Shown one piece after another: positions 1,234-35,463 of a stretch of DNA of 64,000 nt; position 1 is the stretch's first letter, and each line of letters opens with the position of its first letter. The DNA is from Cupriavidus oxalaticus. Its GTDB lineage: Bacteria > Pseudomonadota > Gammaproteobacteria > Burkholderiales > Burkholderiaceae. Where the stretch lies: contig NZ_CP038634.1 in NCBI RefSeq assembly GCF_004768545.1, positions 1,364,001 to 1,428,000 on the forward strand, given 5' to 3'. The translations under genes were made by a program, and so were the position numbers. The notes beneath the pieces are model-generated. The model was not told the origin of the DNA, did not search any database, and saw only the letters and a program-made list of their open reading frames with translations.

Positions 1234-2217
1234 GTGTACGGCGACACCAAGATGCGTGGACGTGGCGGGCCTGGGTTGCGTGGCGGCAATCCGGTGTGGT
1301 CGCACGTCAACTGCCATGTCGACCTGTGGATCGAGTTGCTGCACGGACTTGAACTGCCACCGGTCGCCGCGCTGCCGTGCGCAGTGCGCCAGGATTTCGA
1401 GGCCGATCATTTCACGCAGTGCCGCTTTCCGGTGGCGGACCTGGAGCGGCTCTACGGGCTGACCGCCCATGCGCTGACGCTGTACGACTCGCTCGAGTCG
1501 CACGTGGCGGCGCAGACCGCGCGCGGCCATCTCGTCGTGATCGAACTCGACAGCGGCCAGCTGCCGCCGCCGCCCGGCGCGGGCTACCAGCGCCACCGCA
1601 CGCCGACCTGCATCGCCGTCGACGTGCTGATCCCCCAGGCGGGCGCCGTCGGCTATTACCACACCGACGGCTACCACACCGCCAGCGGCGAGGACTACGC
1701 CGCGATCTTCCGGCTGGCACCGGGAGCGCGCAGCGCCGAGTCGCTGCCCTTCGTGCATGCCGAGGTAGTGCGCCGCGATGGCCGGCTGCGCGGGCGCGAG
1801 TCGTTGCTCGACGCTTCGCTGGCGCTGCTGCGCACGCACCTCGGCAACCGTCCGCAGCAGAATCCCGTGACACAGTTCCGTGCCGTGTTTCCCGCCCACC
1901 TGGAGCGGCTGATGGCGCGCGGCGAGCCGGGCTTCCACCACTACGCCTCGGGCGTGCTGCGCCAGCTCGGCGCCAACTTCGAGCTGCTGGCGCGCTACCT
2001 GCGCTGGCTGGTGATGCAGGGACAGGAGGTCCCGGAGAAGGCGGCCGAAGCGTGCTACACGATGGCGTCGGAAGCGATGGTGATGCAGTTCCGGCTGATG
2101 CGCGCCGTGATCAGCCGCAAGCCGGATCGCTGCGAAGACTGCCTGGACCAGCTCGAGGCCTCTTACCAGGCCAGCGTGCCGGCGCTGGCCCGGCATTTCG
2201 GCGAGTATGCGCCATGA
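1234..2217 (+). CDS. DUF1839 family protein, copy 1 (possible papain-fold acyltransferase)
   Basis: The 327-aa product is a paralogue of the protein at 12172-13179: both carry NC-x-x-DLW-x-ELLHG, QDFE-x-DHFT, a DLE-x-LYG block and a GEDY block. The GTG start is chosen because GGAGG (1223-1227) sits six bases upstream; the ATG at 1252 has no such site. Cys27 (VNCHVDLW), Asp106 (IELDSGQLP) and His121 (YQRHRTP) line up with Cys39, Asp118 and His134 of copy 2. I infer a BtrH-like Cys-Asp-His acyltransferase arrangement, but in this copy the 'FYLP' part after the Asp is degraded. The stop overlaps the start of the truncated GH2 gene (ATGA), so the two are translationally coupled. Family membership is fairly sure; the function is not known. 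Confidence 0.85.
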   Translation: MYGDTKMRGRGGPGLRGGNPVWSHVNCHVDLWIELLHGLELPPVAALPCAVRQDFEADHFTQCRFPVADLERLYGLTAHALTLYDSLESHVAAQTARGHLVVIELDSGQLPPPPGAGYQRHRTPTCIAVDVLIPQAGAVGYYHTDGYHTASGEDYAAIFRLAPGARSAESLPFVHAEVVRRDGRLRGRESLLDASLALLRTHLGNRPQQNPVTQFRAVFPAHLERLMARGEPGFHHYASGVLRQLGANFELLARYLRWLVMQGQEVPEKAAEACYTMASEAMVMQFRLMRAVISRKPDRCEDCLDQLEASYQASVPALARHFGEYAP

Positions 2218-3005
2218 CCGCCGCTGCCGAGGCCACGGGCCGGCGAGCCGCCGCCCTCATTTCGGCCGCCGTTCCGTCCGTCGACGTCACACCCCTCACC
2301 GCCTTCACCGACGTTGCGGGGCGCGCGCCTTGCGGCCCGTGGCGATGGCTGCAGACGCTGCCCGGCGCGGCACCGTCGCCCGCGGTGCTCGACGATGGCG
2401 CGTGCTGGCTGCCGGCGCCGGTGCCCGGTTCGGTTGCGATGGCCATGCAGGCGGCGGGCCGCTTGTGCGAAGGCGCGCCGGTGCCGCTGCACTGCCACGA
2501 CTACTGGTACCGGCTGCGTTTTGCCGGACACGGACCGCGGCTGCTGCGGCTGCGCGGCCTGGTTCGCGGCACCGAAGCGTGGGTCAACGGGCGCCAGGTG
2601 ATTGCCGTGGATGATGCGATCGGGCATGGCACTGAACTGCACGAGTTGCACGCACCGCATCAGTTGTACGAGGCCGCGATCGAACTGTCGGGCATGAACA
2701 CGATCCACCTGTGCTTCCGCGCGCCGCGCGTGCTGCATCCCGCCGCGGCGGCAGTGCGTGGCTGGCGCTGCACGGTGGTGGCCGCCGCCGGCCACCTGGC
2801 CGGTTTTCTTCCGCGCGCCTTGCCGTTGGATGAGGTCGGGCCATGCCAGCCCGTCGAATTGCTTGCGCCCATCACGCTCTTTACGCCATTTGCGCCCCTT
2901 CCGGCACCGCTCGTTTCCGCCGGCCGCCCCGCGCTTCCACCCGTCTCCGACTTTTGCAGGAGGGCCCGGCACCTGCCGGCGCCGCTGCAGCGCGCTGCAC
3001 GCTGA
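2214..3005 (+). CDS. Truncated GH2-like protein: N-terminal sugar-binding domain only
   Basis: The 263 residues match only the N-terminal part of the 863-aa GH2 protein at 9555-12146. Shared blocks are WLPAPVPGSVA, the HDYWYRLRFAG region, the LRGLVRGTEAWVNG jelly-roll strands and VGPxxxVELLxP. After the last block the sequence runs out into a Pro/Ala/Arg-rich tail that looks like read-through of degraded DNA. The whole catalytic barrel, with both active-site glutamates, is missing. The start ATG overlaps the stop of the DUF1839 gene, and the frame is open upstream, so a longer reading is possible but would be the shadow of DUF1839. It is either a decayed duplicate or a retained stand-alone carbohydrate-binding domain. 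Calling it a gene remnant is the safer choice. Confidence 0.7.
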   Translation: MTAAAEATGRRAAALISAAVPSVDVTPLTAFTDVAGRAPCGPWRWLQTLPGAAPSPAVLDDGACWLPAPVPGSVAMAMQAAGRLCEGAPVPLHCHDYWYRLRFAGHGPRLLRLRGLVRGTEAWVNGRQVIAVDDAIGHGTELHELHAPHQLYEAAIELSGMNTIHLCFRAPRVLHPAAAAVRGWRCTVVAAAGHLAGFLPRALPLDEVGPCQPVELLAPITLFTPFAPLPAPLVSAGRPALPPVSDFCRRARHLPAPLQRAAR

Positions 3006-3301: not shown

Positions 3302-4024
3302 ATGATTACGCATCGGTCGGAACTGCATGTCAATCACCTGCTCAGCGCGTTGCCGCGTGGCGAGTGGGAAGCGCTGGCCCAGCATTTCGAGCTGGTCCGG
3401 CTGCGCGCCGGGGAGTTGCTCACCGATTCCGGCCAGCGCATCGTCCACGTCTACTTTCCAACCACGGCAGTGGTTTCGCTGCTGTCGCTGCTCGAAGACG
3501 GCGCGACCGTCGAGATCGCCGCGGTCGGCCATGAAGGGCTGGTCGGGATCCCGGTGGTCACCGGCGGCGACACCATGCCCAGCCGCGTCGAAGTGCGCAG
3601 CCCCGGCCTGGCCTACCGCATTCCCGCACGCATGCTGCGCGCCGAGCTGCCGCGCCTGCCCACGCTGCAGCGCGTGACGCTGCTGTACGTGCAGGCGATG
3701 CTGACGCAGATCGCACAGACCGCCGCGTGCAACCGCCACCACTCGCTGAACAAGCAGCTGTGCCGCTGGCTGCTGCTGGCGATCGACCGGCTCAGTTCCA
3801 ACGAGCTGGTGATCACGCAGCAGGTCATCGCCAACATGCTCGGCGTGCGCCGCGAAGGCGTGACCGAGGCCGCGGGCAAGCTGGAGGACCTGGGACTGAT
3901 CCACCACAGCCGCGGCCATATCACGGTACTGGACCGCTGCGGCCTGGAGAAGCATTCATGCGAATGCTACAAGCTGGTCAAGCGCGAATATGACCGGCTG
4001 CTGCCCGCGCTGGCCAGCGCCTGA
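3302..4024 (+). CDS. Crp/Fnr-family transcriptional regulator
   Basis: The 240-aa protein has an N-terminal cyclic-nucleotide-binding-like barrel (about residues 10-130: LRAGELLTDSGQ, VYFPTTAVVSLLSLLEDG) and a C-terminal winged helix (about 170-215: ITQQVIANMLGVRREGVTEA, then LEDLGLIHHSRGHITVLDR). There are four cysteines but not the N-terminal cluster of Fnr, so oxygen sensing by an iron-sulfur cluster is unlikely. The subfamily is the one often annotated 'Crp/Fnr family' in Cupriavidus and Ralstonia, with an unknown ligand. It lies 86 bp upstream of a Wzc-type gene on the same strand, so control of that gene or of the EPS locus is plausible. No obvious Crp box is visible in its own promoter. 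Confidence 0.9.
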   Translation: MITHRSELHVNHLLSALPRGEWEALAQHFELVRLRAGELLTDSGQRIVHVYFPTTAVVSLLSLLEDGATVEIAAVGHEGLVGIPVVTGGDTMPSRVEVRSPGLAYRIPARMLRAELPRLPTLQRVTLLYVQAMLTQIAQTAACNRHHSLNKQLCRWLLLAIDRLSSNELVITQQVIANMLGVRREGVTEAAGKLEDLGLIHHSRGHITVLDRCGLEKHSCECYKLVKREYDRLLPALASA

Positions 4025-4110: not shown

Positions 4111-6543
4111 GTGAGCAGACTGTCATATGCCAGTGCACCGGCGGAAGGTGCGGCCCCCCGGCGCGAAGCCCAGCCCGCCAGCACGCGCCAGGCGCGCGCG
4201 CTGATGGACCATATGGGCTGGATCGTCGCCGCGGGCGTTGTCGGCGCCGGCGTCGGCGCGCTGGTGGCGCTGTCCGAGCCGCCGCAATACCGTGCGCAGG
4301 CGCTGGTGCAGGTGGAGGGCCGCGACGGCGGCGTGCGCAGCGTGGCGCAGACGCAGGGCGCCGCCGGCTTCGACGCGGGGCTGCTCAAGAGCCGCGCCGT
4401 GGTCGGGCCCGTGGTGGAGCGGCTGCGCCTGGATATCACCGCGCAGCCGCTGCGCGCGCCGCTGGTGGGCGCGCTGGTCGACCGCTTTTCCACGCCCGGC
4501 CACGTGCGCGGCACCTGGCCCGCAAGCCAGGGCTATGCCTGGGGCGGCGAACGCCTGGTGGTCGACACCATGACCGTGCCCGAGGACCTGGTGGACCAGC
4601 CACTGGTGTTCGAGACGCGCCGCGACGGCGCCTACCGCCTTTTCGACCATGACGTGCTGCTGCTCGAGGGCCGTGTCGGGGAGACCGCCAGCGGCAACGG
4701 CATCACGCTGCGCGTGGACCGCATCGAGGCCGCGCCCGGCACGCGCTTCGCACTGACGCGGCATGACCTCGCGCGCACCGCCGAGGCCGTGCGCAAGGGC
4801 CTCCAGGTCGAGAGCGAAGGCGCGCAGATGTCCGCGAGTCAGGGCAGCGCACCGGCGCAGCCGGGCGGCACGGTGCGCGTGGGCTGGCAGTATGCGGACC
4901 GCCAGCTTGCTGCCGAGCTGGTCAACGGCGTCACGCGCGCCTATATCGACGGACAGACCACCAAGCGCCGCGAGGACGCCGCCGGCACGCTGGCCTTCCT
5001 GTCGAACGAATTGCCGCGCGTGCAGGCCGAGCTGACCCGTGCGGAAGAGGCGCTGACGCGCTACCGCGCGCGTACCGGCTCGATGGCGCCCAGCCGCGAT
5101 GCGCAATCGTTCCTGAACAACAGCATGGAGTACCAGCGCCAGATCGCCGCGCTGCGGCTGGAGCGCACACGGCTGCTGCAGCGCTTCACCACCGAGGCCA
5201 ATGAAGTGCGCATGGTCGACAGCCAGATTCAGCAGATGACGCGCGAGCGCGCCGAGATCGATGCGCGCATGCAAAGCCTGTCGGCCTCCGAGCGCGAATC
5301 GGTGGCGCTGACGCGCGACGTCAAGGTGGCCGAGGACATGTACATGGCCCTGCGCACCAAGGTCGAGCAGCTGTCGCTGATGCTGTCCGACAGCTCCAGC
5401 CAGCTGCGCGTAATCGACGCCGCGATCGCGCCGGTGACGCCGGTGGGGATCGGCACGTGGCCGTTCGCTTCCGTGGGCGCGCTGCTCGGGCTGTGCCTGG
5501 GCGTGGCCGGCATCAACCTGCGCCAGCGCCTGCGCCCGTCGGTGGCCAGCGCGGCTGATGCCGAAGAGCGGCTTGGCATGGCGATGCTCGGCGACATCGC
5601 CTTCAGCAACGAGCAGGCCGATCTGGAGCGCCAGATCGAAACCAAGCGCAGCCTGGGCATTGCCGCGGGCTTCACGCTGCCGACCGAGGCGCGCCTGGGC
5701 TGGCCCGAGCCGGGCACCGAGGTGATCGATGCCGTGACCGCGGCCGCGCCGGAGGACAAGCGCGCGCGCGCCGAACGCCTGCTGCGCCAGGGCCTGCACG
5801 ACCAGTACCTGCTGGCGCGGCGCGCGCCGCATTCGCTGGCGGTGGAGGGATTGCGTACCTTGCGTGCGGCGCTGCACTTCGCGCTGCGCGATGCGCCCAA
5901 TTGCCTGGTGGCGATCACCAGCCCGGCCAGCGGCGCGGGCAAGACCTTTACCGCGGTCAACCTCGCGGTGCTGTTTGCCGAGGCCGGCCAGCGCGTGCTG
6001 CTGATCGACGCGGACCTGCGCCGCGGGCGCGTGGCGGACTGGTTCGACCAGCCGGTAGAGCCGGGCCTGGCCGAAGTGCTGGCCGGGCGCGCCGCGATCG
6101 CCGACGCGGTCAGGCCGAGCGTGGTCAGCGGCCTGTTCCTGCTCAATCGCGGCGCGGCGCCGGCGAATCCGTCCGAGTTGCTGATGCTGCCGGCGCTGGC
6201 GGAAACGCTGCGCCTGTGCGCGGGCCGCTTCGACCTGGTGCTGGTCGATACTCCGCCGGTGCTGGCGGTGGCGGATGCCACGCTGGTGTCCAACCTGGCA
6301 GGCTCCACGCTGGTGGTGGTGCGCGCTGACGTAACCGCGGCGGGCCAGGTTGACGACGCCCTCAAGCGCCTCGCGCATGCCAACGCGCGGCTGGCGGGCG
6401 GGATCCTGAACGGGGTCATGCCACGGCGCAGCAACAGGTCGGACTTCAATACCATCAATCCCTATCTGGGCATGCCCTTGCCCAAGGCGGAAGCGAAGCG
6501 CCCGGCATTGACCAGGCAAGTCAATGGAGCGGAGAAAGCCTGA
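4111..6543 (+). CDS. Wzc/GumC-type polysaccharide co-polymerase with a kinase domain lacking a tyrosine tail
   Basis: The 810-aa inner-membrane protein controls EPS chain length and export. A first membrane segment (about 38-54, WIVAAGVVGAGVGALVAL) is followed by a Wzz periplasmic domain with a long coiled coil, a second segment (about 450-470) and a cytoplasmic BY-kinase-type ATPase. Walker A is SPASGAGKTF near residue 604, Walker A' is LLIDADLRRG and Walker B is LVLVDTPPVLAVADA. The C-terminus ends NPYLGMP...QVNGAEKA with one tyrosine only. The usual autophosphorylated tyrosine cluster is absent, unlike the second Wzc at 15706-17928. The GTG start is preceded by GAGGAG eight bases away. No phosphatase or Wza gene is next to it. 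It may act as a second co-polymerase or on the same export complex. Confidence 0.92.
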   Translation: MSRLSYASAPAEGAAPRREAQPASTRQARALMDHMGWIVAAGVVGAGVGALVALSEPPQYRAQALVQVEGRDGGVRSVAQTQGAAGFDAGLLKSRAVVGPVVERLRLDITAQPLRAPLVGALVDRFSTPGHVRGTWPASQGYAWGGERLVVDTMTVPEDLVDQPLVFETRRDGAYRLFDHDVLLLEGRVGETASGNGITLRVDRIEAAPGTRFALTRHDLARTAEAVRKGLQVESEGAQMSASQGSAPAQPGGTVRVGWQYADRQLAAELVNGVTRAYIDGQTTKRREDAAGTLAFLSNELPRVQAELTRAEEALTRYRARTGSMAPSRDAQSFLNNSMEYQRQIAALRLERTRLLQRFTTEANEVRMVDSQIQQMTRERAEIDARMQSLSASERESVALTRDVKVAEDMYMALRTKVEQLSLMLSDSSSQLRVIDAAIAPVTPVGIGTWPFASVGALLGLCLGVAGINLRQRLRPSVASAADAEERLGMAMLGDIAFSNEQADLERQIETKRSLGIAAGFTLPTEARLGWPEPGTEVIDAVTAAAPEDKRARAERLLRQGLHDQYLLARRAPHSLAVEGLRTLRAALHFALRDAPNCLVAITSPASGAGKTFTAVNLAVLFAEAGQRVLLIDADLRRGRVADWFDQPVEPGLAEVLAGRAAIADAVRPSVVSGLFLLNRGAAPANPSELLMLPALAETLRLCAGRFDLVLVDTPPVLAVADATLVSNLAGSTLVVVRADVTAAGQVDDALKRLAHANARLAGGILNGVMPRRSNRSDFNTINPYLGMPLPKAEAKRPALTRQVNGAEKA

Positions 6544-6953: not shown

Positions 6954-7205
6954 ATGAGAGCAGCCATACGTACCATCCTCTTGGAAGTGGCTCGTCTGAA
7001 CGTGCCAGTTGAATCGTTGGACGACCACGCCGATCTGTATGAAGCAGGACTGTCGTCGCTGGCGACCGTGCACGTCATGATCGCGATCGAGAACGCTTTC
7101 GGCATCGAAATCCCCGATCGCATGCTGACCCGCCAGCTGTTTCGCAGCATCGGCGCACTGGCGACGGCAGCCGAGCAACTCAAGAATGAGCAGGAGGCGG
7201 CGTGA
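6954..7205 (+). CDS. Stand-alone acyl/aminoacyl carrier protein
   Basis: The 83-aa protein has the four-helix carrier-protein pattern and the phosphopantetheine site in DLYEAGLSSLATVHVMIAIE, with Ser35 the predicted attachment residue. After 4'-phosphopantetheinylation it would hold an acyl or aminoacyl group as a thioester. Its genetic partner is the SerRS-like amino acid:[carrier protein] ligase two genes downstream, as in the Bradyrhizobium and Agrobacterium pairs described for that ligase family. This makes an amino acid the likely cargo rather than a fatty acyl chain. The ATG at 6954 opens the compact domain. The stop overlaps the GTG of the next gene, so the module is one operon. No phosphopantetheinyl transferase is nearby; a housekeeping one would be needed. 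Confidence 0.9.
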   Translation: MRAAIRTILLEVARLNVPVESLDDHADLYEAGLSSLATVHVMIAIENAFGIEIPDRMLTRQLFRSIGALATAAEQLKNEQEAA

Positions 7206-8401
7206 GCCCCGCGCTTGCCAGCGTTGAGCTGGCACCTCCGCGCGCCGAGATTGCCGATGCCGCGCACTGGCTGGCGGCGGCCAGGCTGGTCGCCGCAGAA
7301 GCAGCACGGCATGCAGACCAGGTCGACCGGGACGCAAGCTTTCCCTGTCAGGCCTTCACGGTATTGCGCGAGCACAAACTGCTGGGTGCCATGGTGCCGA
7401 CTGACCTTGGCGGTGGTGGCGCGCCGCTCGAGACGATCGCGGCGGTTTGCCGCGTGCTCGGCGCCGCCTGCGCTTCGACGGGCATGATCTACGCGATGCA
7501 CCAGATCCAGGTGGCATGCCTGGTCAACCATGCCGGCAACAGTGCATGGCACGCGCAACTGTTGCAACGGCTTGGCGGCGAACAGTTGCTGCTCGCATCG
7601 GCCACCTCCGAAGAGGCTATTGGCGGTGCGTTGCGCAACAGCGGACGCGCGGTCAACGTCGACAACGGCAACCTCCATTTGCTGAAGATGGCGCCAACCA
7701 TCTCCTATGGCGCCCACGCTGACGGAATTCTCGTGACGGCACGTCGACACCCCGATGCCGCGCCCACGGACCAGGTCATGGTGAGCGTTCTGAAGCCGGA
7801 CTACACGCTGGACAACCTCTCCGCATGGGACACCCTGGGCATGCGGGGCACGTGCAGCAACGGCTTCCGGCTCGAAGCGCGCGGCCATACCGATCAGATC
7901 CTGCCGGTGCCGTTCGGCGAGATTGCGGACGTTACGATGACCCCCGTGTCGCATATCCTGTGGTCTGCCGTGTGGACAGGCATCGCGGCGGACGCGGTCC
8001 AGCGTGCCAAGGCACTGTTCCAGGGCCAGGCCCGTGCCCGACCCGGCACGCTGCCGCCATCGGCAACGCGCGTGGCTGAGGCCGTAGCCATCATCCAGAT
8101 GCTCGATGGCCGCCTGGAGCTGGCGCTCAGCCACCAGCGCCAGCGGCAGGCAAGGCAGGGCGTGTCGGCGATGTTCAGCCTGGCGGCGGAAATGAATGGT
8201 CTCAAGACCAGCGTGTCGGTGCTGGCGCTCGAGGCAGTCCAGATCGCGATGCTGGTGTGCGGCATGGCGGGCTACAAGCATGGCACGCCGTTCAGCCTGG
8301 GACGCCACCTTCGGGATCTGTGGTCGGCGCCCCTGATGATCAACAACGATCGCATCCTGACCAACACCGCCAATCTGCTGCTGGCGGACCGGACTGCCTG
8401 A
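7202..8401 (+). CDS. Acyl-CoA dehydrogenase-superfamily flavoprotein
   Basis: The 399-aa protein shows the family's N-terminal helical part (FTVLREHKLLGAMVPTDLGG), the middle beta domain (WDTLGMRGTCSNGFRLEARG) and a C-terminal helical bundle ending LGRHLRDLWSAPLMINNDRI. That ending is closer to the 'type 2' C-terminal domain of flavin monooxygenases such as DszC and HpaH than to beta-oxidation dehydrogenases. Its place between a carrier protein and an amino acid:carrier-protein ligase suggests that it oxidises the tethered aminoacyl group. The choice would be desaturation, as in prolyl-carrier-protein dehydrogenases, or hydroxylation. AGGAGG precedes the GTG by four bases, and the gene overlaps its upstream neighbour. 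The reaction is inferred from context only. Confidence 0.85.
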   Translation: MSPALASVELAPPRAEIADAAHWLAAARLVAAEAARHADQVDRDASFPCQAFTVLREHKLLGAMVPTDLGGGGAPLETIAAVCRVLGAACASTGMIYAMHQIQVACLVNHAGNSAWHAQLLQRLGGEQLLLASATSEEAIGGALRNSGRAVNVDNGNLHLLKMAPTISYGAHADGILVTARRHPDAAPTDQVMVSVLKPDYTLDNLSAWDTLGMRGTCSNGFRLEARGHTDQILPVPFGEIADVTMTPVSHILWSAVWTGIAADAVQRAKALFQGQARARPGTLPPSATRVAEAVAIIQMLDGRLELALSHQRQRQARQGVSAMFSLAAEMNGLKTSVSVLALEAVQIAMLVCGMAGYKHGTPFSLGRHLRDLWSAPLMINNDRILTNTANLLLADRTA

Positions 8402-8411
8402 GGATCCGAGC

Positions 8412-9416
8412 ATGGACGACACCAGCAACACTTGCACGCCCGACGAGAACGCATCACCTGTTGCGGGTGATCATTTTTTCCACGCCGTACCGGTGCGGGA
8501 TCCGGACCTCGGCCGTCGTGCCTACCGGCAGGCGCTCATCGATGCCCGCGTGCTCTTTCCGACCAAGGTCGATGGCATTTATGGTCGCAGCGCGCTGTTC
8601 GAAGGCATTGCCGATGGATTGAACCTCGCCATCGGCAAGCTCGGAGCCGACCAGCATGCGGAAGTGATGCGATTTCCTCCCGCGATGCCGCGCGAGGATT
8701 TCGAAGCGAGCGAATACCTCAAGAGTTTTCCGCAACTGGCGGGGACGGTGCATTGCTTCTGTGGCGGCGAACGGGAACATCACCGTCTGCTCGCCCGTGT
8801 GGAACACGGTGAGAACTGGGCGGAGCAGCAGCGACCGACCGAAGTGGTGCTGGCACCCGCCGCGTGCTATCCGGTCTACCCGGTAGTGGCCGACCGCGGG
8901 CCGATGCCCCGTGGCGGCCTCGTGGTCGACGTGCTGACGTATTGCTTCCGCCATGAGCCCTCCATCGACCCCGCACGCATGCAGATGTTCCGCCAGCGCG
9001 AGTACGTGCGGCTCGGGACAGCCGAGCAGATTGTCGAATTCCGCCAGACATGGATGGAGCGTGGCCAGAAGCTGGCCAGCATGCTCGGGTTGCCGCACGA
9101 GGTGGATATTGCGAACGATCCGTTCTTCGGTCGTGGCGGCAAGATCGTCGCGGACAGTCAGCGTGAACTCAAACTGAAGTTTGAGCTGCTGGTGCCGATC
9201 AACGATGGCGCGCCCCCGACCGCTTGCATGAGTTTCAACTATCACATGGATCATTTCGCCCATGCGTGGCCGCTGCGCACCGATGACGGGGCGCTGGCCC
9301 ATACCGGCTGCGTGGGCTTCGGCATCGAGCGCCTGACGCTGGCTTTACTGCGCCATCACGGCTTCGAACTGGCGCGCTGGCCGCAACGCGTGCGCGATGT
9401 GCTCGGAGGCATCTAG
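8412..9416 (+). CDS. Amino acid:[carrier protein] ligase, SerRS-like class II synthetase homologue
   Basis: The 334-aa protein is a class II aminoacyl-tRNA synthetase catalytic core without a tRNA-binding arm. Motif 2 is seen as CFRHEPSIDP...MFRQREYVRLG and motif 3 as GCVGFGIERLTLALL. Cys152 (AACYPVYPV), Glu197 (FRQREYV) and Cys300 (TGCVGFG) match the zinc ligands of atypical seryl-tRNA synthetases. Their spacings of 45 and 103 residues equal those I recall for the characterised Bll0957 (Cys131, Glu176, Cys279). Members activate a small amino acid with ATP and load it on the phosphopantetheine of a cognate carrier protein, here most likely the one at 6954-7205. Which amino acid (Gly or Ala in known members) cannot be told from the sequence. 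It follows the flavoprotein gene by 10 bp. Confidence 0.9.
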   Translation: MDDTSNTCTPDENASPVAGDHFFHAVPVRDPDLGRRAYRQALIDARVLFPTKVDGIYGRSALFEGIADGLNLAIGKLGADQHAEVMRFPPAMPREDFEASEYLKSFPQLAGTVHCFCGGEREHHRLLARVEHGENWAEQQRPTEVVLAPAACYPVYPVVADRGPMPRGGLVVDVLTYCFRHEPSIDPARMQMFRQREYVRLGTAEQIVEFRQTWMERGQKLASMLGLPHEVDIANDPFFGRGGKIVADSQRELKLKFELLVPINDGAPPTACMSFNYHMDHFAHAWPLRTDDGALAHTGCVGFGIERLTLALLRHHGFELARWPQRVRDVLGGI

Positions 9417-9554
9417 TCCAACGCCGCGAGCATTCGACCGGAACCGCGCAGAGTGTTGCCGGCTGATGCCGCTGGAGCCAATTTGCGAGGCAGTCGGCTG
9501 TGATCCGCCAGGCTGGCATCCCGGCCCTGCCGGGTTACGCGATGAAGGCAGTCC

Positions 9555-12146
9555 ATGATGTCCCAAGGTTACCCGGACACAAACACCTCGATGCCTGATC
9601 CGGAGTCATTCCCTGACATCCGATCGGGCATCCCCATTGGCAACGCCGTGCTCGGTGGCGAGTGGACGTGGATACAGACGGGCGCCGGTGCAGCCGACAG
9701 TCCGGCGGGCCTGGATGGCACGGCGGGCTGGCTGCCGGCCCCGGTTCCTGGCACGGTGGCCAGCGCGCTGCGCGCCGCCGGTCGCTGGGACGACTCCGCG
9801 CCGCCGCCACTGCACCTGCATGACCATTGGTATCGTGTGCGCTTTGCCGGGCGGGGCAGGCAAGTGCTGCGCTTTAACGGACTCGCCACAGTGGCCGAAG
9901 CCTGGCTCAACGGAAAACTCGTGCTGGGTGTTCAGCATATGTTCGCCGCGCACGAGGTCGAGGTCGACCTGGACGGAGACAACCTGCTGTATCTCTGTTT
10001 TCGGGCGCTGCATCCATGGTTGCGCAAGCGGCATGGCGCAGTGCGCTGGAAGCCCAGAATGATCGTGCCCCCCACCTTGCGTACGGTCCGCACGACCCTG
10101 CTTGGCCATATGCCGGGCTGGTGCCCGCCGGTGCATGCGGTGGGGCCCTGGCGTTCCGTAGAGTTGCTCGATCCGGCAAGCGACGACATTCTTCACGGCG
10201 TGCGCGCTGACATGTCGGCGCAAATGCCGGAAGGACACGGCGTCGTCTCGCTGCGGCTGCATTTCCCGGGGGCAGCGCCGGCTTCGGGGTCGTTCGAGGC
10301 AACAGACGGTGAGGGTTGCCGCCATCCCGGCACACTCTCGCGCATTGACAGGCACACCCTTTCGGGCACGCTACGGGTCGAACGACCGAAGCCATGGTGG
10401 CCTCATACGCACGGCGAGCCACACCTCTACCGTGTCGATGCAACCGTCGACGGGCGCGCCATCGAATGCGGCCGGGCCGGTTTTCGCACGGTATCGCTCG
10501 ACGGTGCGAGCGCATCGGCTTCGTCCGGGCCTTCGCGGTTGTCTGAGCCGTTTGCACTGTGCATCAATGGCGAGCGGCTGTTTTGCCGCGGGGCCTGCAT
10601 TTCCAGCATCGATTTGCCTGGCCTCGCAGACACTGATGAAGCCTCCCGGTACTGGCTGACGCTTGCGCGCAACGGCGGCATGAACATGGTGCGCATCAGC
10701 GGTGTCACGTGCTATCCGGGTGAAGCCTTCTATCGGGTTTGCGACGAACTGGGCTTGCTGGTCTGGCAGGATTTCATGTTCGCCAACTTCGACTATGGCA
10801 GCATCGGACCCGGCGTTGGCCTTACCGATGACTTCCAGCGCGAAGTCACCGGGTGGCTGACATCGACCCGGGCGCATCCAAGCGTTGCGGTGCTTTGCGG
10901 CGGTAGCGAGGCGGAGCAGCAGGCGGCAATGCTGGGTACCTCGCGTGGCGAATGGAAGCAACCGCTGTTCGAGGAGTTGATCCCGGGCCTGGTTGCCGCG
11001 CATCGTCCGGACGTGGTCTATGTCAGCAATTCGCCAACCGGAGGGGCCTGGCCGTTCCAGCCGGACAGCGGTGTCTGCCACTATTACGGCGTGGGGGCCT
11101 ACGAACGTCCGTTGACGGATGCGCGGCTGGCACAGGTCCGCTTCGCCTCCGAATGCCTGGCCTTTGCCAATGTTCCCGGTGATCGAACGCTGACAGAGCA
11201 CGGACTGTTGCTGCCGCTGCATTCCCCGCGCTGGAAAGCCACGGTGCCGCGCGACGCGGGTGCACCGTGGGATTTCGAAGATGTCCGCGATCACTATTTG
11301 CGCGCCTTGTACGATGTGGATCCGCCGCGCTTGCGGTATGAGCAGCCCCAACGCTATCTGATGCTGTCGCGGGCGGTGACGGCGGAGGTGATGACCGAAG
11401 TCTTCAGCGAATGGCGACGGGTGGGATCGGGTTGTTCCGGCGGCCTGATCTGGCAGCTGCAAGACCTGACGCCTGGCGCAGGCTGGGGTATTGTCGATGC
11501 GTGCGGGCGCCCCAAGTCGGCATGGCATGCGCTACGCCAGGTCTGGCAACCAGTGCAGGTGCTGATTACTGATGAGGGGCTCAATGGACTGCACCTGCAC
11601 GTGCTGAACGAAATGCCGCAGCCACGCTCTCTGCTGCTGGTCCTGCGCTGCCTGCGTGATGGCGCGATGGTGGTGGCTGAAGCCCGGCACAGCCTGCGGC
11701 TGCCGGCGCGCGGGTCGGAGCGTATCGAGGCGTCCGCACTGCTCGATCGCTTCTTTGACTTCACGTATGCCTATCGCTTCGGCCCGCCGACGCATGACGT
11801 GGTACTGGCGACGTTGCTTGCCGGCGACAGCGGCGAGCCACTGAGCCAGGCGGTGTACCTGCCCGACCGCCGTGCCACCGCGCTCAAGGCGCCTGGGTTG
11901 CGGGCGCAGCTAGAGCAGGTTGGCGACGAGTGGTGGCTGACGGTGTCAGCGGAGCGCTTCGCGCGCTGGGTGCACATCGAGGACGTTGCCTACCAGGCTT
12001 CGGAGAACTGGTTCCACCTTGCACCGGGAAGCAGCCGGCGAGTTCGACTCGTGCACGAGCGCAAGGGCGCGGCGCAAGCTGTTACCGTTCCCTCAGGCGA
12101 AATCTACGCTGTGAATGCTGACCATCCGCTTGGCTATGATGGTTAG
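9555..12146 (+). CDS. Glycoside hydrolase family 2-type protein (beta-mannosidase-like)
   Basis: The 863-aa protein has the GH2 order: an N-terminal sugar-binding jelly roll (about 20-200, with WLPAPVPGTVA and the DHWYRVRFAG block), an immunoglobulin-like domain (about 210-330), a TIM barrel and C-terminal beta domains. In the barrel, ELGLLVWQDFMFANFDYGS is typical of the mannosidase/glucosaminidase branch. Glu452 in VLCGGSEAEQQ is the likely acid/base (family form NNE, here GSE) and Glu533 in RFASECLAF the likely nucleophile. No signal peptide is seen, so it acts in the cytoplasm unless secreted otherwise. It lies 138 bp behind the carrier-protein ligase and converges with a DUF1839 gene. 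A role in trimming or transferring sugar in EPS assembly is inferred. The substrate is unknown. Confidence 0.85.
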   Translation: MMSQGYPDTNTSMPDPESFPDIRSGIPIGNAVLGGEWTWIQTGAGAADSPAGLDGTAGWLPAPVPGTVASALRAAGRWDDSAPPPLHLHDHWYRVRFAGRGRQVLRFNGLATVAEAWLNGKLVLGVQHMFAAHEVEVDLDGDNLLYLCFRALHPWLRKRHGAVRWKPRMIVPPTLRTVRTTLLGHMPGWCPPVHAVGPWRSVELLDPASDDILHGVRADMSAQMPEGHGVVSLRLHFPGAAPASGSFEATDGEGCRHPGTLSRIDRHTLSGTLRVERPKPWWPHTHGEPHLYRVDATVDGRAIECGRAGFRTVSLDGASASASSGPSRLSEPFALCINGERLFCRGACISSIDLPGLADTDEASRYWLTLARNGGMNMVRISGVTCYPGEAFYRVCDELGLLVWQDFMFANFDYGSIGPGVGLTDDFQREVTGWLTSTRAHPSVAVLCGGSEAEQQAAMLGTSRGEWKQPLFEELIPGLVAAHRPDVVYVSNSPTGGAWPFQPDSGVCHYYGVGAYERPLTDARLAQVRFASECLAFANVPGDRTLTEHGLLLPLHSPRWKATVPRDAGAPWDFEDVRDHYLRALYDVDPPRLRYEQPQRYLMLSRAVTAEVMTEVFSEWRRVGSGCSGGLIWQLQDLTPGAGWGIVDACGRPKSAWHALRQVWQPVQVLITDEGLNGLHLHVLNEMPQPRSLLLVLRCLRDGAMVVAEARHSLRLPARGSERIEASALLDRFFDFTYAYRFGPPTHDVVLATLLAGDSGEPLSQAVYLPDRRATALKAPGLRAQLEQVGDEWWLTVSAERFARWVHIEDVAYQASENWFHLAPGSSRRVRLVHERKGAAQAVTVPSGEIYAVNADHPLGYDG

Positions 12147-12171
12147 CGACGCCTGCCGGTCGCGTGCTGGC

Positions 12172-13179
12172 TCAGCCGAAAGCCGATAGCAGTCCTGCCA
12201 TGGCCTTGTCATGGCAGGACTCCAGGCTATCCAGGCAGTCCGCGCAGAGGTCGGCGCGCCGGCGTGCCACTGCCCGCGCCAGTCGGAACTGCAATACCTT
12301 GCTCTCGGTTGCGATGGCGCGTGCGTCGTCTGCGACGGCCAGGGGCGTCTCGTGCCCATGCTCGCTTAGCCAGTACAGCCAGTGATGCAGCATCTCGAAG
12401 TTGGCGCCCAGCTGGCGCGGGAAGTTGAAGGTGTACAGGTGAAAATAGGATTCGTCCCTCGCCAGCAGGGCGTCCATATGCTTGCCGAACACCTGTCGCC
12501 AGCGACCTACCGGATTGCCTGCGGGGCGCCTGGCGAGGTGGTATCGCATCAGTGCCACCGAAGCATCGACCAACGCGGACGATTCGAGCGGAGGCCGCAC
12601 GCGTTTTGCATATTCAGCATAGGGGAACAGGATGTTTGCGTTGCCTGCGAGCTCGGGCAAGAGCCGCATCAGGCCGCGATAGTCCTCGCCCTGCGCGTTG
12701 TGGTAGCCCAGGCTGTGGTAGTACCAGACACGCTCGGCCTGGTTGTCGATACGGTTGATCGCTATCGTGGTCTTGACGTGCTCGCGCCGGTAGGCGGTGG
12801 CATGCGTGTCGGGCAGGTAAAAGCTGTCGACTTCGACCAGTGCGGTGTGACCGCGCTCGACCTGCGCCGTGACGTGTGCCTGCAGCGTGTCATAAACGGC
12901 CATTTCCTGCACGCTGATCCCATACAGCGTTTCCAGATCCATCTGCGGGTACTTGAAGAAGGTGAAGTGATCGCCTTCAAAGTCTTGTGCAACGGTGAAC
13001 GCGAGTCCTGCGCGCGGTTCGAGCCCCCAGCCATGCAGCAATTCCACCCACAGGTCGATATAGCAATTGGTTTCCTGCCAGATGGCTTCGGAACCATGCA
13101 GAGCGTGGGGATGCGCGGTCGCCGGCAGGGCGGTTCTCAGCCCGCCTCCACCTTCGCCGCTTGCTGTCGAGACTTTCAT
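12172..13179 (-). CDS. DUF1839 family protein, copy 2 (possible papain-fold aminoacyl transferase)
   Basis: The 335-aa protein belongs to the same family as 1234-2217. ATG 13179 is preceded by AGAGGA; a GTG 15 bases earlier is also possible. I see a Cys-Asp-His arrangement: Cys39 in ETNCYIDLW, Asp118 in LVEVDSFYLPDT and His134 in YRREHVKTTIAI. The block G-H-T-A-L-V-E-V-D-S-F-Y-L-P followed by a His and hydrophobic strands resembles BtrH-type N-terminal domains. In butirosin synthesis BtrH moves an aminoacyl-type side chain from a carrier protein to an amino sugar. That would fit exactly beside an amino acid:carrier-protein ligase. This is a pattern match by eye, not a search result. The gene converges with GH2, and its 3' end carries a strong hairpin. 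Confidence 0.85.
   Translation of the reverse strand: MKVSTASGEGGGGLRTALPATAHPHALHGSEAIWQETNCYIDLWVELLHGWGLEPRAGLAFTVAQDFEGDHFTFFKYPQMDLETLYGISVQEMAVYDTLQAHVTAQVERGHTALVEVDSFYLPDTHATAYRREHVKTTIAINRIDNQAERVWYYHSLGYHNAQGEDYRGLMRLLPELAGNANILFPYAEYAKRVRPPLESSALVDASVALMRYHLARRPAGNPVGRWRQVFGKHMDALLARDESYFHLYTFNFPRQLGANFEMLHHWLYWLSEHGHETPLAVADDARAIATESKVLQFRLARAVARRRADLCADCLDSLESCHDKAMAGLLSAFG
12191..12221. terminator. 12-bp perfect hairpin in the convergent 3' overlap region
   Basis: AGTCCTGCCATG at 12191-12202 and CATGGCAGGACT at 12210-12221 pair perfectly across a 7-nt loop. The hairpin lies inside the last codons of the minus-strand DUF1839 gene and just behind the stop of the plus-strand GH2 gene. 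With only 25 bp between the two stops it could act as a two-way terminator. No T-run follows, so termination is inferred. Confidence 0.45.
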
Positions 13180-13538
13180 GTCGGTCCTCTGCACCTTTCA
13201 TTGTGCTGGCTTGCGTACGGACTTCCGATTCTGGCGAGACGGCACCTGCCATTCGGTGCGCTCTCAAACAGACTTGAAGAACTGGTGAGGCAAGCCGAGG
13301 AAAATGGGTCGCGGGAGTGCTCGCTGGCGCCGTGGCAGAGCCGGCGGCTGAAGTGTGAGATAGCCAACGGTGCAAAGGGGCGCCGCGGGGCATAGTCACT
13401 GCAGGCAATCCTCCGCATTGAGTGCCCGTGGATGGATCGTTGCCATGGGCAAAGCAACCGAACCAAGAGCATGAAGCCTGTCAGCGGCGCTCCCCCTGCG
13501 CCATGCCCAAATGAGTGCGGTTTCTCGGAGCCATTGTG
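13180..13538. other. Divergent promoter region between DUF1839 and phosphoglycosyltransferase genes
   Basis: This 359-bp stretch must hold the promoters of the minus-strand DUF1839 gene and the plus-strand transferase gene. I find no clear -35/-10 pair, no palindrome and no copy of the TGATTAGATG motif found before other EPS units. Confidence 0.4.
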
Positions 13539-14159
13539 ATGAAGCGCATCTTTGATGTTGTCCTGGCCTTGCTGGGCATGCTGCTGCTTGCCATTCCGCT
13601 TCTGCTCCTGGTTTGCGTAGTGCGCGTGCGTCTGGGCAACCCGGTTTTCTTCCGGCAAGTCCGGCCGGGGCTTCATGGCGAACCATTCCACATTCTCAAG
13701 TTTCGTACCATGACGGATGCTCGCGGACCGGACGGCGAACTGCTGCCTGATCCGGAGCGGCTGACCAGACTTGGGGCGTTTCTTCGCTCCACCAGCCTCG
13801 ATGAGCTGCCGGAGCTCTGGAATGTACTCAAGGGTGACATGAGCCTGGTTGGGCCACGGCCGCTATTGATGGAATACCTGCCGCGCTACTCTCCAGAGCA
13901 GATGCGCCGCCACATGGTCCGTCCCGGCATTACCGGACTCGCACAGATCAGTGGACGCAACGCGATCAGCTGGGAAGAAAAATTCCGGCTGGACGTCTGG
14001 TACGTGGATCACGTTTCGGTGTGGCTGGACATCGTGATCTTGTGGAAGACCGTCATCAAGGTAGTAGCGCGCGAGGGGATCAGTGCCGCGGGAGAATTCT
14101 CCGCCCCTCGCTTCATGGGAAGCAAACGGAGCGCCTCGGATGCCGATATCGCGCGATGA
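13539..14159 (+). CDS. Initiating phosphoglycosyltransferase, small (PglC/WcaJ-C) type, copy 1
   Basis: The 206-aa membrane protein should transfer a sugar-1-phosphate from a UDP-sugar to undecaprenyl phosphate and so start a repeat unit. It has one N-terminal re-entrant helix ([20 protein letters not shown]) and the catalytic core with [34 protein letters not shown] and [14 protein letters not shown]. The Asp-Glu pair in LDELPE is the family's catalytic dyad. ATG 13539 is chosen over the ATG at 13515 because TCGGAG lies eight bases upstream and the core starts there. A second, similar enzyme is at 36814-37470. With the PglF/PglE/PglD-like genes of this locus, a 4-amino-6-deoxy HexNAc-type first sugar is possible. 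Sugar specificity is not readable. Confidence 0.93.
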
Positions 14160-15619: not shown

Positions 15620-15705
15620 GACTTGTTTGCCCTCAGCGAAGCAAAGTTCGAGTTCAGCGGCCGACGGCTGGACGGAAACTACACCAGCCGCCGCCGTCGC
15701 CCTGG

Positions 15706-18398: not shown

Positions 18399-18402
18399 CC
18401 CG

Positions 18403-25585: not shown

Positions 25586-25658
25586 ACGCCTCAATCATCG
25601 ATGAATATCAGTTGCCGCTGTACAGGCCTTGCCTGGTGACCAGACTGGCGGATACCTG

Positions 25659-28355: not shown

Positions 28356-29840
28356 CTACCGTCGTTCATCGTCAGTTCGCGTCGGGCGCAGCGTGCGCCG
28401 CATCCAGAACGCAGACAGGGCCAGGAAGTAAGCGGCAGAAACCAGGGTCCGCCAGTCGGGTTCGCCGCTGAACAGCAGTATCGAAGGCAGTGCCCAGGCG
28501 CAGAAGACCAGCAAGCGCCCCGCATCGTGCGTCACCATTGTCTTGAGCCTCACCCCCACTCGCGACATGAACAGGGTAAGCATCCCGAGATAGGCAACGG
28601 CGCTCACTGCGGAGAAAACGGCAATGCTGGGGTCCGCCGGAACGCTGAATCCGTAACAAACTGCCAGCGTGGCAAGACGAATCGCAAAGGTGCTGAACTG
28701 CGCGATCAGTTCCATCTTCTGCAGTTCCATCACATCAGGGAGGCAGGAGAGCGGCGAGAACTGGAACTGGAAATAGATCCAGGGAGCCATCCAGCGCGCA
28801 TAGTGGCCGGCCATGCGCCACCGTTCGCCGAACACGGCCGCGAACAGGTCCGGCCCGGCGCAAACAAGCAGCACCAGTGCCGGAACGCCGGCATTGGCCA
28901 GCTTCCGGCGCAGCGCCTCGGCCGCCTCGGGCAGGCGACCGGCCCGCATGGCGGCCGGCGCCTGGGCGAAAAAAACACTACCGATCGCCGCGCCGATCAG
29001 TGAGATCGGCGCCGATACCATGCGCAGCGCGAAGGCAAAGTGGCCGACTACGGCAGCGCCGAACAACGCCGAGAAGATCAGCGGCACCAGGTGCACGCCC
29101 GCCACATTGAATGTGGCTGTCCAGGTGGAGTACAGCGGAAAATCCTTGTAGCGGCGCGCAAGGGCCACGATGCGGATCAGCTTCACGTTGCCGCCCCGCC
29201 TGCGGCGGATTTCCCTGATCGCATAGAACAGTCCGCCGGCGCCATGTCCGATTACCGTTCCACCCATCAAGGCCAGGACGCCGAAACCATAGCCGCCCAA
29301 TTGCACCAGGTTTGCGATCACGGACCGCACCAGCCTGGTCTGCGCCAGCTGGCCAAAATACTGCATCCGGACCATCCATCGCTCGATCACAGTGTAGAGG
29401 CCGACCGAAGCAACGCCGAAGGGGAGCAGCCAGAGAGCGCTGGCGTCGATTGACCAGTTAAGGGTCAGGATCAGCGATTCGCCGAAGAACAGCACGCCGA
29501 GCGCGCAAAGCGCGCTGGTCGTCGCCACGCACAGCAGGCATAAGGCCACCAGGTTCTCGGCATCGCGATCGCTGGCGGGCAGGGCGATCGACAAGTCATA
29601 GCGCAGGCAGGCGACAACGCCGAAGAACGCGAGCAGGCCCGCGAAGACCGCCACGGCGCCAAAATCCTGCGGAGAATAGAGGCGCGTCAGAACTGGCGAG
29701 ACCGCCAGCGTAAGTATCTGCGCGGCGGCCTGCCCGCTGACCAGCACGCCAATGCTTCTGCCGACACGGGGTTTCTCCGCCGTGCCGGGGTCCACGGCGA
29801 GCGCCTGCTTGTTCAAGGCACGACTCGCTCTGGCTGGCAC
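28356..29840 (-). CDS. Lipid-linked repeat-unit flippase (Wzx family)
   Basis: The 494-aa inner-membrane protein has about 12 to 14 helices in the MATE/MOP flippase pattern. The start is SIGVLVSGQAAAQILTLAVS followed by PVLTRLYSPQDFGAVAVF, a typical Wzx opening. It would move the undecaprenyl-linked repeat unit to the periplasmic face. The GTG at 29840 makes the gene overlap the aminotransferase gene by 28 bp; a later GTG start is possible. It belongs to the minus-strand run from the UDP-GlcNAc dehydrogenase (33850) downwards. Confidence 0.92.
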   Translation of the reverse strand: MPARASRALNKQALAVDPGTAEKPRVGRSIGVLVSGQAAAQILTLAVSPVLTRLYSPQDFGAVAVFAGLLAFFGVVACLRYDLSIALPASDRDAENLVALCLLCVATTSALCALGVLFFGESLILTLNWSIDASALWLLPFGVASVGLYTVIERWMVRMQYFGQLAQTRLVRSVIANLVQLGGYGFGVLALMGGTVIGHGAGGLFYAIREIRRRRGGNVKLIRIVALARRYKDFPLYSTWTATFNVAGVHLVPLIFSALFGAAVVGHFAFALRMVSAPISLIGAAIGSVFFAQAPAAMRAGRLPEAAEALRRKLANAGVPALVLLVCAGPDLFAAVFGERWRMAGHYARWMAPWIYFQFQFSPLSCLPDVMELQKMELIAQFSTFAIRLATLAVCYGFSVPADPSIAVFSAVSAVAYLGMLTLFMSRVGVRLKTMVTHDAGRLLVFCAWALPSILLFSGEPDWRTLVSAAYFLALSAFWMRRTLRPTRTDDERR

Positions 29841-30928
29841 ATGGCATGTCGGAGAATCACTGAACAGATAGCCTGCTGGCTTGCCATGTCGAGGTACGGA
29901 TGCATCGGCAGGCTCAACACCTCACGCGCCAGCGCGTCGCCGACCGGCAGGCGGGCCTCGCAGGCGGCTACTGCGGGCTGCCGGTTCAGCGGCAACGGAT
30001 AGTGCACGACAGTGGGGATTCCGGTGGCTTTCAGCACATCCTGCAAGGAATCGCGATCCGGGACACGGATGGTGTACTGTGCCCATACGCTGAGGTTGTG
30101 GGGTTCGACATGCGGCGTGGCCTCGAACCCCCCCTGGCGCAGCAGTTCTCCGTACCGCGCCGCCACTTGCTGGCGTAGCTCGACCTCCTCATCGAAGATC
30201 GTCAGCTTTGCCAGCAGGATGGCCGCCTGCAATGTATCCAGGCGACTGTTCACGCCAACGCGGACATGGTGGTAGCGCCGGTCCTGGCCATGACGGGCGA
30301 TCTGGCGCATCGCCTTGGCCAGGTCTTCGTCGTTGGTGAAGATCGCTCCGCCGTCCCCGTAACAGCCTAGTGGCTTGCTGGGAAAGAAGCTGGTACAGGC
30401 AATCGTGGACAGATTGCAGCTACTGCGGCCCTTGTAGGTGGCACCGAAGCTCTGCGCAGCGTCCTCGATGACCGGCAAGCCGTGGCGCGCGGCAATGGCA
30501 TTGATGATGTCGAAATCGGCACACTGTCCATACAGGCTGACCGGGATGATGGCCCTTGTGTGGTCGGTGATCGCCGCCTCGAGCGCCGCGGGATCCAGGT
30601 TGCAGGTGCGCGGATCCACGTCCGCATAGACCGGCTTCGCTCCCAGCAAGGCGACGGTCTCAGCGGTGGCAATATAGGTAAAGCCGGGCATGACGACCTC
30701 ATCGCCGGGCCCGATGCCCAGCGCCATCAGGGCAATCTGCAGTGCGTCCGTGCCGTTGGCACAACTGATGCAGTACCGGGTGCCGGTATCGTGCGCAAGC
30801 CGCTGCTCCAGCTCCTCGACCTCCGGACCGAGAATGTACTGGCCGTGCGCCAGCACGCGCTGGATGCCGGTGTCAATCCTGTGCTTGATGCGGGCTTGCT
30901 GCGCTTTGAGGTCGATGAACTCGATCAT
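29813..30928 (-). CDS. wbpE: DegT/DnrJ/EryC1 aminotransferase, WbpE-like
   Basis: The 371-aa PLP enzyme puts an amino group on C3 of a UDP-3-keto-uronic acid, using glutamate. The N-terminus IEFIDLKAQQARIKHRID, the substrate loop GTDALQIALMALGIGPGDEV, the IEDAAQSFGATYKGR stretch and the PLP lysine in FFPSKPLGCYGDGG are all present. The gene sits in the order dehydrogenase, oxidoreductase, acetyltransferase, aminotransferase, which is the wbpA-B-D-E set of Pseudomonas aeruginosa. The product would be UDP-GlcNAc3NA. AGGAA stands seven bases before the ATG. The symbol is given for similarity in sequence and context. Confidence 0.9.
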   Translation of the reverse strand: MIEFIDLKAQQARIKHRIDTGIQRVLAHGQYILGPEVEELEQRLAHDTGTRYCISCANGTDALQIALMALGIGPGDEVVMPGFTYIATAETVALLGAKPVYADVDPRTCNLDPAALEAAITDHTRAIIPVSLYGQCADFDIINAIAARHGLPVIEDAAQSFGATYKGRSSCNLSTIACTSFFPSKPLGCYGDGGAIFTNDEDLAKAMRQIARHGQDRRYHHVRVGVNSRLDTLQAAILLAKLTIFDEEVELRQQVAARYGELLRQGGFEATPHVEPHNLSVWAQYTIRVPDRDSLQDVLKATGIPTVVHYPLPLNRQPAVAACEARLPVGDALAREVLSLPMHPYLDMASQQAICSVILRHAMCQPERVVP

Positions 30929-30975
30929 GGCTGATTTCCTGTGCAGACGGCATGCGGAGGGGACTGGTCACTGCC

Positions 30976-31557: not shown

Positions 31558-31564
31558 CACAGCC

Positions 31565-32533
<969 letters not shown>

Positions 32534-35446: not shown

Positions 35447-35463
35447 CGATTCCTTCCATGCCG

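Follow-up and report, generated by a model that had tools for sequence, protein, structure and literature searches.

A CcbD-like predicted fold for DUF1839, the candidate sugar-linking enzyme of an amino acid:carrier-protein ligase module in exopolysaccharide loci of Cupriavidus

Introduction

What is an amino acid on a carrier protein (CP) used for in the middle of exopolysaccharide (EPS) genes? The question is raised by a stretch of 64,000 nucleotides from the 7.97 Mb genome of Cupriavidus oxalaticus (NZ_CP038634.1, positions 1,364,001 to 1,428,000; hereafter the window), where genes for a CP, a flavoprotein, a ligase resembling seryl-tRNA synthetase (SerRS), a GH2-type protein and a DUF1839 protein stand together. 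A sequence-only reading had proposed that an amino acid is loaded on the CP, oxidised there and put on an amino sugar of the EPS, and that this would be a new, tRNA-free route.

In the Dlt system a CP-bound amino acid likewise reaches a cell-surface polymer without tRNA: teichoic acids are D-alanylated, with another ligase family and other transferases (DltB/DltD) than those of the window module. Amino acid:CP ligases are a family with solved structures, and the accessible portions of the literature name no product for them. PMC2922099 reports, in a note added in proof, that loading of a CP with amino acids by the Bll0957-type ligase was demonstrated in 2010. The same text describes a conserved neighbourhood of such ligases (ACP, redox enzyme, conserved uncharacterised protein, glycosidase and saccharide genes), predicts that the redox enzyme modifies the aminoacyl group and that the uncharacterised ORF (Atu2574) is an amide-forming ligase, and reports that the original Bll0957 authors had proposed the start of a short non-ribosomal peptide. 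As far as that text goes, the modules of Agrobacterium (CP Atu2571, ligase Atu2573, Atu2574) and Bradyrhizobium (Bll0957) have the CP, redox enzyme, ligase, uncharacterised ORF, glycosidase, saccharide genes and predicted chemistry in common with the window, and from gene order we infer that Atu2574 is a DUF1839 protein. Unlike these modules, the window has two DUF1839 copies, of which the ligase-linked one is on the other strand, and a GH2 fragment; the loci L094-L096, which we take as the Bradyrhizobium type, have neither DUF1839 nor GH2. The idea is thus already in print as a prediction, almost point by point within the accessible text, and the claim of a novel tRNA-free route falls to this prediction and to the Dlt system. 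What is new here is a likely identity for the sugar-linking enzyme, DUF1839, together with signs that this protein has a second job.

Results

All five genes are present at 6954-13194; profile and structure matches make each a family homologue and none a chance ORF (Table 1). The set as first described (CP with Ser35, flavoprotein, SerRS-like ligase, GH2, DUF1839) is borne out by profiles, structures and residues, and its proposed setting holds as well, since EPS genes lie on both sides of it. A second DUF1839 gene (copy a) and a GH2 fragment, at 1252-3005 upstream of the Crp-type and Wzz/Wzc genes, had been missing from the earlier description. A search of the whole genome found no third DUF1839, and phosphopantetheinyl transferase matches (PF01648) lie at two places in it. 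The genes at 29813-34006, whose order we take to be that of WbpE-D-B-A, are a possible supplier of amino-bearing sugars.

Table 1. Features of the window, with positions counted from its first nucleotide
Feature	Position	Strand	Basis
DUF1839 copy a (Cys44 kept, His139 replaced by Arg, Thr143 by Cys)	1252..2217	+	PF08893
GH2 fragment, N-terminal part only	2214..3005	+	same fragment in L180, L181, L189
Crp/Fnr-type regulator (name by eye; NCBIfam score far under cut-off)	3302..4024	+	
Wzz/Wzc-type chain-length tyrosine kinase of EPS locus	4111..6543	+	NCBIfam
Stand-alone aminoacyl carrier protein (CP), phosphopantetheine site Ser35	6954..7205	+	NF005480, PDB matches
Flavoprotein, acyl-CoA-dehydrogenase / group D monooxygenase fold	7202..8401	+	profile and fold searches
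SerRS-like amino acid:[carrier protein] ligase, catalytic core only	8412..9416	+	NF005479, Bll0957 structures
GH2 beta-mannosidase-like protein	9555..12146	+	Pfam, alignment to beta-mannosidase
DUF1839 copy b, papain-like, CcbD-like predicted fold (Cys44, Thr142, His160)	12172..13194	-	PF08893
Polyprenyl glycosylphosphotransferase (EPS priming enzyme)	13539..14159	+	TIGR03025, 253.9 bits, below cut-off 295.55; protein short
DegT aminotransferase, acetyltransferase, Gfo/Idh-like oxidoreductase, NDP-sugar dehydrogenase	29813..34006	-	curated cut-off (TIGR03026) passed by dehydrogenase only

The CP matches PF00550 (44.9 bits) and NF005480 (120.8 bits, cut-off 72), its best PDB matches are 4h2w_C and Atu2571 (2jq4) with 64.6 bits each, and Ser35 is conserved in 35 of 35 aligned CPs. 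The ligase scores 517.7 bits against NF005479 (cut-off 357), which places it in this family, and matches the structures 4h2w (314.1 bits) and Bll0957 (3mey, 307.7 bits). SerRS models match its 334 residues only from model position 308-310 of 518, and the protein is therefore a class II core without the tRNA-binding domain. The three Cys/Glu/Cys zinc ligands claimed earlier are found as C152, E197 and C300, present in all 41 aligned sequences and aligned with C131, E176 and C279 of Bll0957, which we take to be zinc ligands. Bll0957 and its relatives are said to load glycine or alanine. Judged from its sequences, the five-gene set very probably serves to load the CP with a small amino acid, which may then be handed on to a sugar.

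The flavoprotein has an acyl-CoA-dehydrogenase fold according to Pfam and structure comparison. The classical glutamate of acyl-CoA dehydrogenases (GYxxE region) is replaced by Gly, Asp or Asn in 37 of 37 sequences, and the catalytic base may lie elsewhere; H251, W254, W258 and C218 are invariant in the alignment. The best NCBIfam model, Rv1679 FadE16, gives 83.9 bits, far from its cut-off of 600. The fold is common to the group D flavin monooxygenases (DszC, the nitrososynthases DnmZ/KijD3) and to ColB1, a dehydrogenase of carrier-tethered cysteine, at an identity of only 14-22% in the Foldseek and VIA-align lists. Foldseek ranks DszC/TdsC and nitrososynthases at the top, while VIA-align ranks short-chain dehydrogenases and ColB1 there, with gaps of about 2 Z units; the two methods disagree, and the fold does not tell whether the protein is a dehydrogenase or a monooxygenase. 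If the amino acid is glycine, desaturation between C-alpha and C-beta is impossible. Unlike that of the group D monooxygenases, the substrate is probably a CP-bound amino acid.

In the GH2 protein E452 and E533 are present in 27 of 27 sequences, as the acid/base and nucleophile glutamates of a retaining glycosidase, with roles assigned through alignment to beta-mannosidase. By eye its N-terminus has no obvious signal peptide, and the protein is probably cytosolic. The GH2 fragment at 2214-3005 gave no match in a Pfam scan and shows a dN/dS of 0.37-0.47, a sign of relaxed selection.

Both DUF1839 copies match PF08893 far above its gathering cut-off of 22.5 bits (copy b 479.5, copy a 442.7). In the structure search the predicted fold resembles CcbD over nearly the whole protein, and its relatives are CcbD/LmbD, CtaG and AziU3. 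CcbD links a CP-bound amino acid (proline) through an amide bond to an amino sugar, the lincosamide sugar, as acceptor, and in both CcbD and DUF1839 a cysteine opens the first long helix (Cys44 in DUF1839). The triad is Cys-His-Glu in CcbD/LmbD and Cys44, Thr/Ser142, His160 in DUF1839, so the order differs and the second and third positions look swapped. CcbD/LmbD also belong to an antibiotic cluster whereas DUF1839 sits in an EPS context, and the lincosamide system employs an NRPS A-domain in place of an aminoacyl-tRNA-synthetase-like ligase. The accessible part of PMC10318531 classes DUF1839 as a member of the papain-like superfamily, gives its triad as C(T/S)H, with which our three residues agree, and proposes a function connected with cell-wall glycans. 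From this and from residue spacing, Thr142 appears to occupy the position of the CcbD histidine and His160 that of its glutamate. Among PDB sequences the DUF1839 profile matched none of CcbD, CtaG and AziU3 up to an E-value of 10. The one basis of the link is the predicted fold, and we would say that DUF1839 may work like CcbD, filing it outside that family. The fold by itself is no proof of a condensing role, because AziU3 acts in aziridine formation, by a mechanism that the accessible portions of the literature do not give. DUF1839 is hardly named in the literature searched, which covers few of the subscription journals.

The sequence-only reading had expected constant co-occurrence of ligase, DUF1839 and EPS genes. 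In an evenly drawn sample of 398 Pseudomonadota genomes, the ligase is over its cut-off in 28 (44 at E <= 0.001) and DUF1839 is present in 16, every one of them among the 28. A DUF1839 copy lies at most 126 bp from the ligase in 15 of the 16; the exception is the window, with 2,780 bp and the opposite strand. In this sample the tight linkage and the direction from DUF1839 to ligase (16/16) stand, but constancy does not: 12 of the 28 ligase genomes lack DUF1839, and inside Cupriavidus 9 of 35 genomes with DUF1839 lack the ligase. In the nine of these 12 whose ligase neighbourhoods were compared, homologues of neither DUF1839 nor GH2 were detected. Pfam matches there (72 of 90 flank proteins, 7 of the 9 loci) include five AMP-binding enzymes and three Wzz proteins, and therefore the contexts of DUF1839-free ligases are mixed, some being near polysaccharide genes.

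DUF1839 searched against the named GTDB contigs gave 579 places, of which the best 80 were followed; all their records are named Cupriavidus, Ralstonia, Paraburkholderia, Burkholderia, Caballeronia or Burkholderiaceae. In the 75 of these 80 that are free of contig edges, we counted the ligase in 67, the CP in 70, the flavoprotein in 65, GH2 (its fragments included) in 69 and the Crp-type gene in 67. The proposed EPS context is confirmed by an EPS marker in 66 of the 75, and the markers of the reference set are missing in nine. All five genes stand on one strand in the order CP-flavoprotein-ligase-DUF1839-GH2 in 50 of the best 80, and another 12 have this order with an additional DUF1839 copy, according to an in-house gene caller, which can overlook short genes like that of the CP. 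Where the DUF1839 locus of a named genome is without ligase, two of seven genomes have one elsewhere and five have none anywhere (an eighth, L146, was left out). From the loci of other classes, taken as Alphaproteobacteria, 94 of 110 flank proteins of 11 loci were scanned as a pool and 29 proteins singly. Glycosyltransferase, flippase or Wzz genes occur in L081, L082, L085, L092 and L097; a double alpha/beta-hydrolase lies beside or near GH2 in L085, L087, L088, L090, L091 and L097, and in L082 it forms one protein with a flippase domain. No EPS gene was among the singly scanned flank proteins of L086, L087 and L088.

Within Cupriavidus (36 genomes, that of the window included) the ligase is present in 27 and DUF1839 in 35. 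Besides the nine DUF1839 genomes without any ligase, G024 has ligases and no DUF1839, and in G034 about 1.4 Mb separate the two. A DUF1839 copy is less than 4 kb from a homologue of the window Wzz/Wzc gene in 34 of the 35; in the 35th, G003, they are at opposite ends of a single contig, and only 1.9 kb would separate them on a circular molecule. Set beside G020 as a ligase-bearing comparison, the loci of the nine ligase-free genomes and of G034 form an erosion series: L186 (with CP) and L187 keep the flavoprotein and DUF1839; L184, L185 and L188 (G034) have DUF1839 and a GH2 gene lacking about residues 409-529; L180, L181 and L189 have DUF1839 and the N-terminal GH2 part; and in L182 and L183 only DUF1839 is left, ahead of the Crp gene. 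Cys44 is found in eight of these ten DUF1839 copies, is Ala in L186 and falls outside the called start in L185. Among ligase-free-type DUF1839 pairs, window copy a included, dN/dS is 0.07-0.21, while in the same loci it is 0.24-0.49 for GH2 remnants, 0.03-0.15 for Crp and 0.12-0.33 for Wzz/Wzc; these and all other dN/dS values given here are simple pairwise estimates with no significance test, and synonymous differences of up to 0.92 make some of them rough. In Cupriavidus there has been duplication of DUF1839, and its coupling to the ligase has been lost in part; copy a of the window is of the uncoupled type. There is clear evidence that DUF1839 has a life beyond the ligase in this genus.

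Two DUF1839 copies are present in 20 of the 35 genomes; usually copy a adjoins the ligase, and copy b follows downstream in the opposite orientation. A tree of 53 rows puts those with Arg or Gln at position 44 on one side of a single supported branch (99/99) inside the copy-a group; Cys44 is kept in the single-copy species C. basilensis, C. gilardii and C. cauae and in one two-copy row, L104. All 23 Arg/Gln44 rows have the ligase directly upstream and a second DUF1839 in the genome, which is in the same locus with Cys44 present in 22 and on another contig for L084. In three pairs of Cys-less copies dN/dS is 0.07-0.12, against 0.14-0.26 in the corresponding pairs of copy b and 0.09 in one pair of single copies that have Cys. 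The Cys-less copies are constrained and were therefore retained for something that does not require Cys44. The window's own copy a, GH2 fragment, Crp and Wzz/Wzc genes follow the order of L180 and L181 (in G003, of L189 and L190), and copy a is 98% identical to the DUF1839 of L180 and 95% to that of L181. Thus the window joins a locus of ligase-free type with a full cassette carrying copy b.

Discussion

Our data describe a module of the amino acid:CP ligase type known from Agrobacterium, here in an EPS locus. The characterised ligase family strongly argues for a first step in which a small amino acid, reportedly glycine or alanine, would be adenylated and loaded on holo-CP at Ser35. The flavoprotein would then oxidise the CP-bound aminoacyl group, as a dehydrogenase or a monooxygenase. 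Fold, gene order and conserved residues suggest that Cys44 of copy b would accept the acyl group and pass it to a sugar amino group in the manner of CcbD. The GH2 protein, probably in the cytosol, might conceivably trim or supply the glycan, and the modified sugar would join the EPS repeat unit. On balance we lean towards a transfer of the CP-bound amino acid by copy b to a sugar of the EPS pathway, and the predicted structure adds support for the condensing enzyme to an already published hypothesis. From the sequence-only reading, the ligase/CP pair, the DUF1839 linkage and the EPS context are retained, now with the CcbD-like DUF1839 fold; constant co-occurrence and novelty are given up.

Several observations run against an EPS transfer: the 12 of 28 ligase genomes without DUF1839, the 9 of 35 Cupriavidus genomes where DUF1839 is still constrained without a ligase, the 9 of 75 loci without an EPS marker and the 5 of 7 named genomes with a ligase-free DUF1839 locus and no ligase at all. 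To these belong the triad order unlike that of CcbD, the lack of sequence similarity to it, and the ligase-linked copy on the opposite strand, 2.8 kb off.

One rival reading is that the module makes a small aminoacyl-sugar metabolite, secreted or a signal, as lincosamide synthetase does, and that its EPS neighbours reflect shared regulation (Crp gene) and not EPS chemistry. The nearest structural relatives of DUF1839 indeed produce small molecules, the GH2 protein lacks an obvious signal peptide by eye, and the singly scanned flank proteins of L086, L087 and L088 include no EPS gene. However, EPS markers are present in 66 of 75 loci and DUF1839 adjoins a Wzz/Wzc gene in all 35 Cupriavidus genomes that have it (G003 if its contig is circular), and we consider this explanation unlikely. 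We give similarly little credence to DUF1839 being a true EPS component independent of the ligase, which would transfer acyl groups from a cellular ACP or tRNA, or be a hydrolase or a structural subunit, with the ligase genes as an accessory donor system gained and lost. This would suit the nine ligase-free Cupriavidus genomes, the stronger constraint on DUF1839 without a linked ligase than on GH2 remnants and the constraint on Cys-less copies (0.07-0.12), but the order CP-flavoprotein-ligase-DUF1839-GH2 is kept in distant groups outside Cupriavidus, and co-occurrence in the phylum sample is 16/16. That ligase and CP begin a short non-ribosomal peptide is very improbable: CP-tethered amino acids are the usual NRPS entry and AMP-binding enzymes make up 5 of 72 flank proteins near DUF1839-free ligases, but no condensation-domain or NRPS family is among the 25 of 92 families listed for DUF1839-type flanks or among the proteins scanned in part of the window.

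Returning to transfer by DUF1839 within the EPS pathway, we tentatively offer a wider reading, although we would sooner expect it to fail in some part than to hold throughout. DUF1839 would be a glycan acyltransferase of CcbD fold with a re-ordered triad, a regular part of EPS loci in Cupriavidus with at least two modes, ligase-fed (copy b, Cys44 intact) and ligase-free (copy a). Among the ligase-linked copies a, one clade would have exchanged the nucleophile Cys44 for Arg or Gln, and only where a second copy exists, so that the Cys-less paralogue would be a conserved partner subunit or have a new function; the window genome would hold a ligase-fed copy b and a copy a of ligase-free type side by side.

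The ligase-free and Cys-less DUF1839 copies indicate that the published picture of a single function is incomplete. Should DUF1839 prove to be the condensing enzyme, a few proteins would be enough to rebuild the amino-acid-to-sugar path in vitro. CcbD-type chemistry would then extend from antibiotics to polysaccharides, and a widespread EPS of soil bacteria would gain an amino-acid decoration that alters its charge.

Acyltransferase-like genes in the window

The EPS region of the window that holds the module also encodes three FemAB-like/GNAT proteins (table below), and these could constitute a separate acylation route, either tRNA- or CoA-dependent.

FemAB-like/GNAT proteins of the EPS region
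Protein	Position	Strand	Basis of the name
FemAB-like/GNAT protein 1	24629-25594	-	by eye; no Pfam match
FemAB-like/GNAT protein 2	34325-35593	-	PF13480 above cut-off
FemAB-like/GNAT protein 3	43364-44398	+	PF13480 and FemAB (PF02388), both above cut-off

The window also contains a repetitive ORF (57476-59119, plus strand) of 547 aa with a very high Gly/Ala content and a signal-like start.

Variation of the module in other genomes

Immediately upstream of the carrier protein gene in L082, a neighbourhood taken as alphaproteobacterial, lie two genes (5923-7988), one class II synthetase-like and the other for a radical SAM protein, which we take to be possibly EpmA and EpmB of EF-P modification. 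EF-P was matched by 3 of the 94 flank proteins in the Pfam tally, and the place of the pair beside the carrier protein is perhaps merely a fixed insertion site. Further along the same locus, after genes for the GH2 protein and one glycosyltransferase and downstream of both, is encoded a protein of 1103 aa (15388-18696) that combines a flippase-like domain (Polysacc_synt_3) with two alpha/beta-hydrolase matches. An ORF of equal length is present in L081 (1460-4768); the domain matches are reported for the L082 protein.

The ligase also occurs without DUF1839. The Cupriavidus genome G024 carries two lone ligase genes (L068 and L069) with 70-71% identity to the window ligase, and this genome lacks DUF1839 as well as any close counterpart of the window's Wzz/Wzc gene for EPS. 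Neighbours of these ligases appear transposase-like by eye. In L095, a locus taken as being of Bradyrhizobium type, the gene that follows the ligase (10541-11413) resembles a GNAT acyltransferase by eye and possibly stands in for DUF1839.

The converse arrangement is found in Paraburkholderia/Burkholderia, where five loci (L146, L148, L157, L158 and L178) retain DUF1839 and a Crp-type gene, while a search at each locus for the ligase, the flavoprotein and the GH2 protein found none. Since these loci resemble the reduced loci of Cupriavidus, the loss may have been repeated, taking place more than once.
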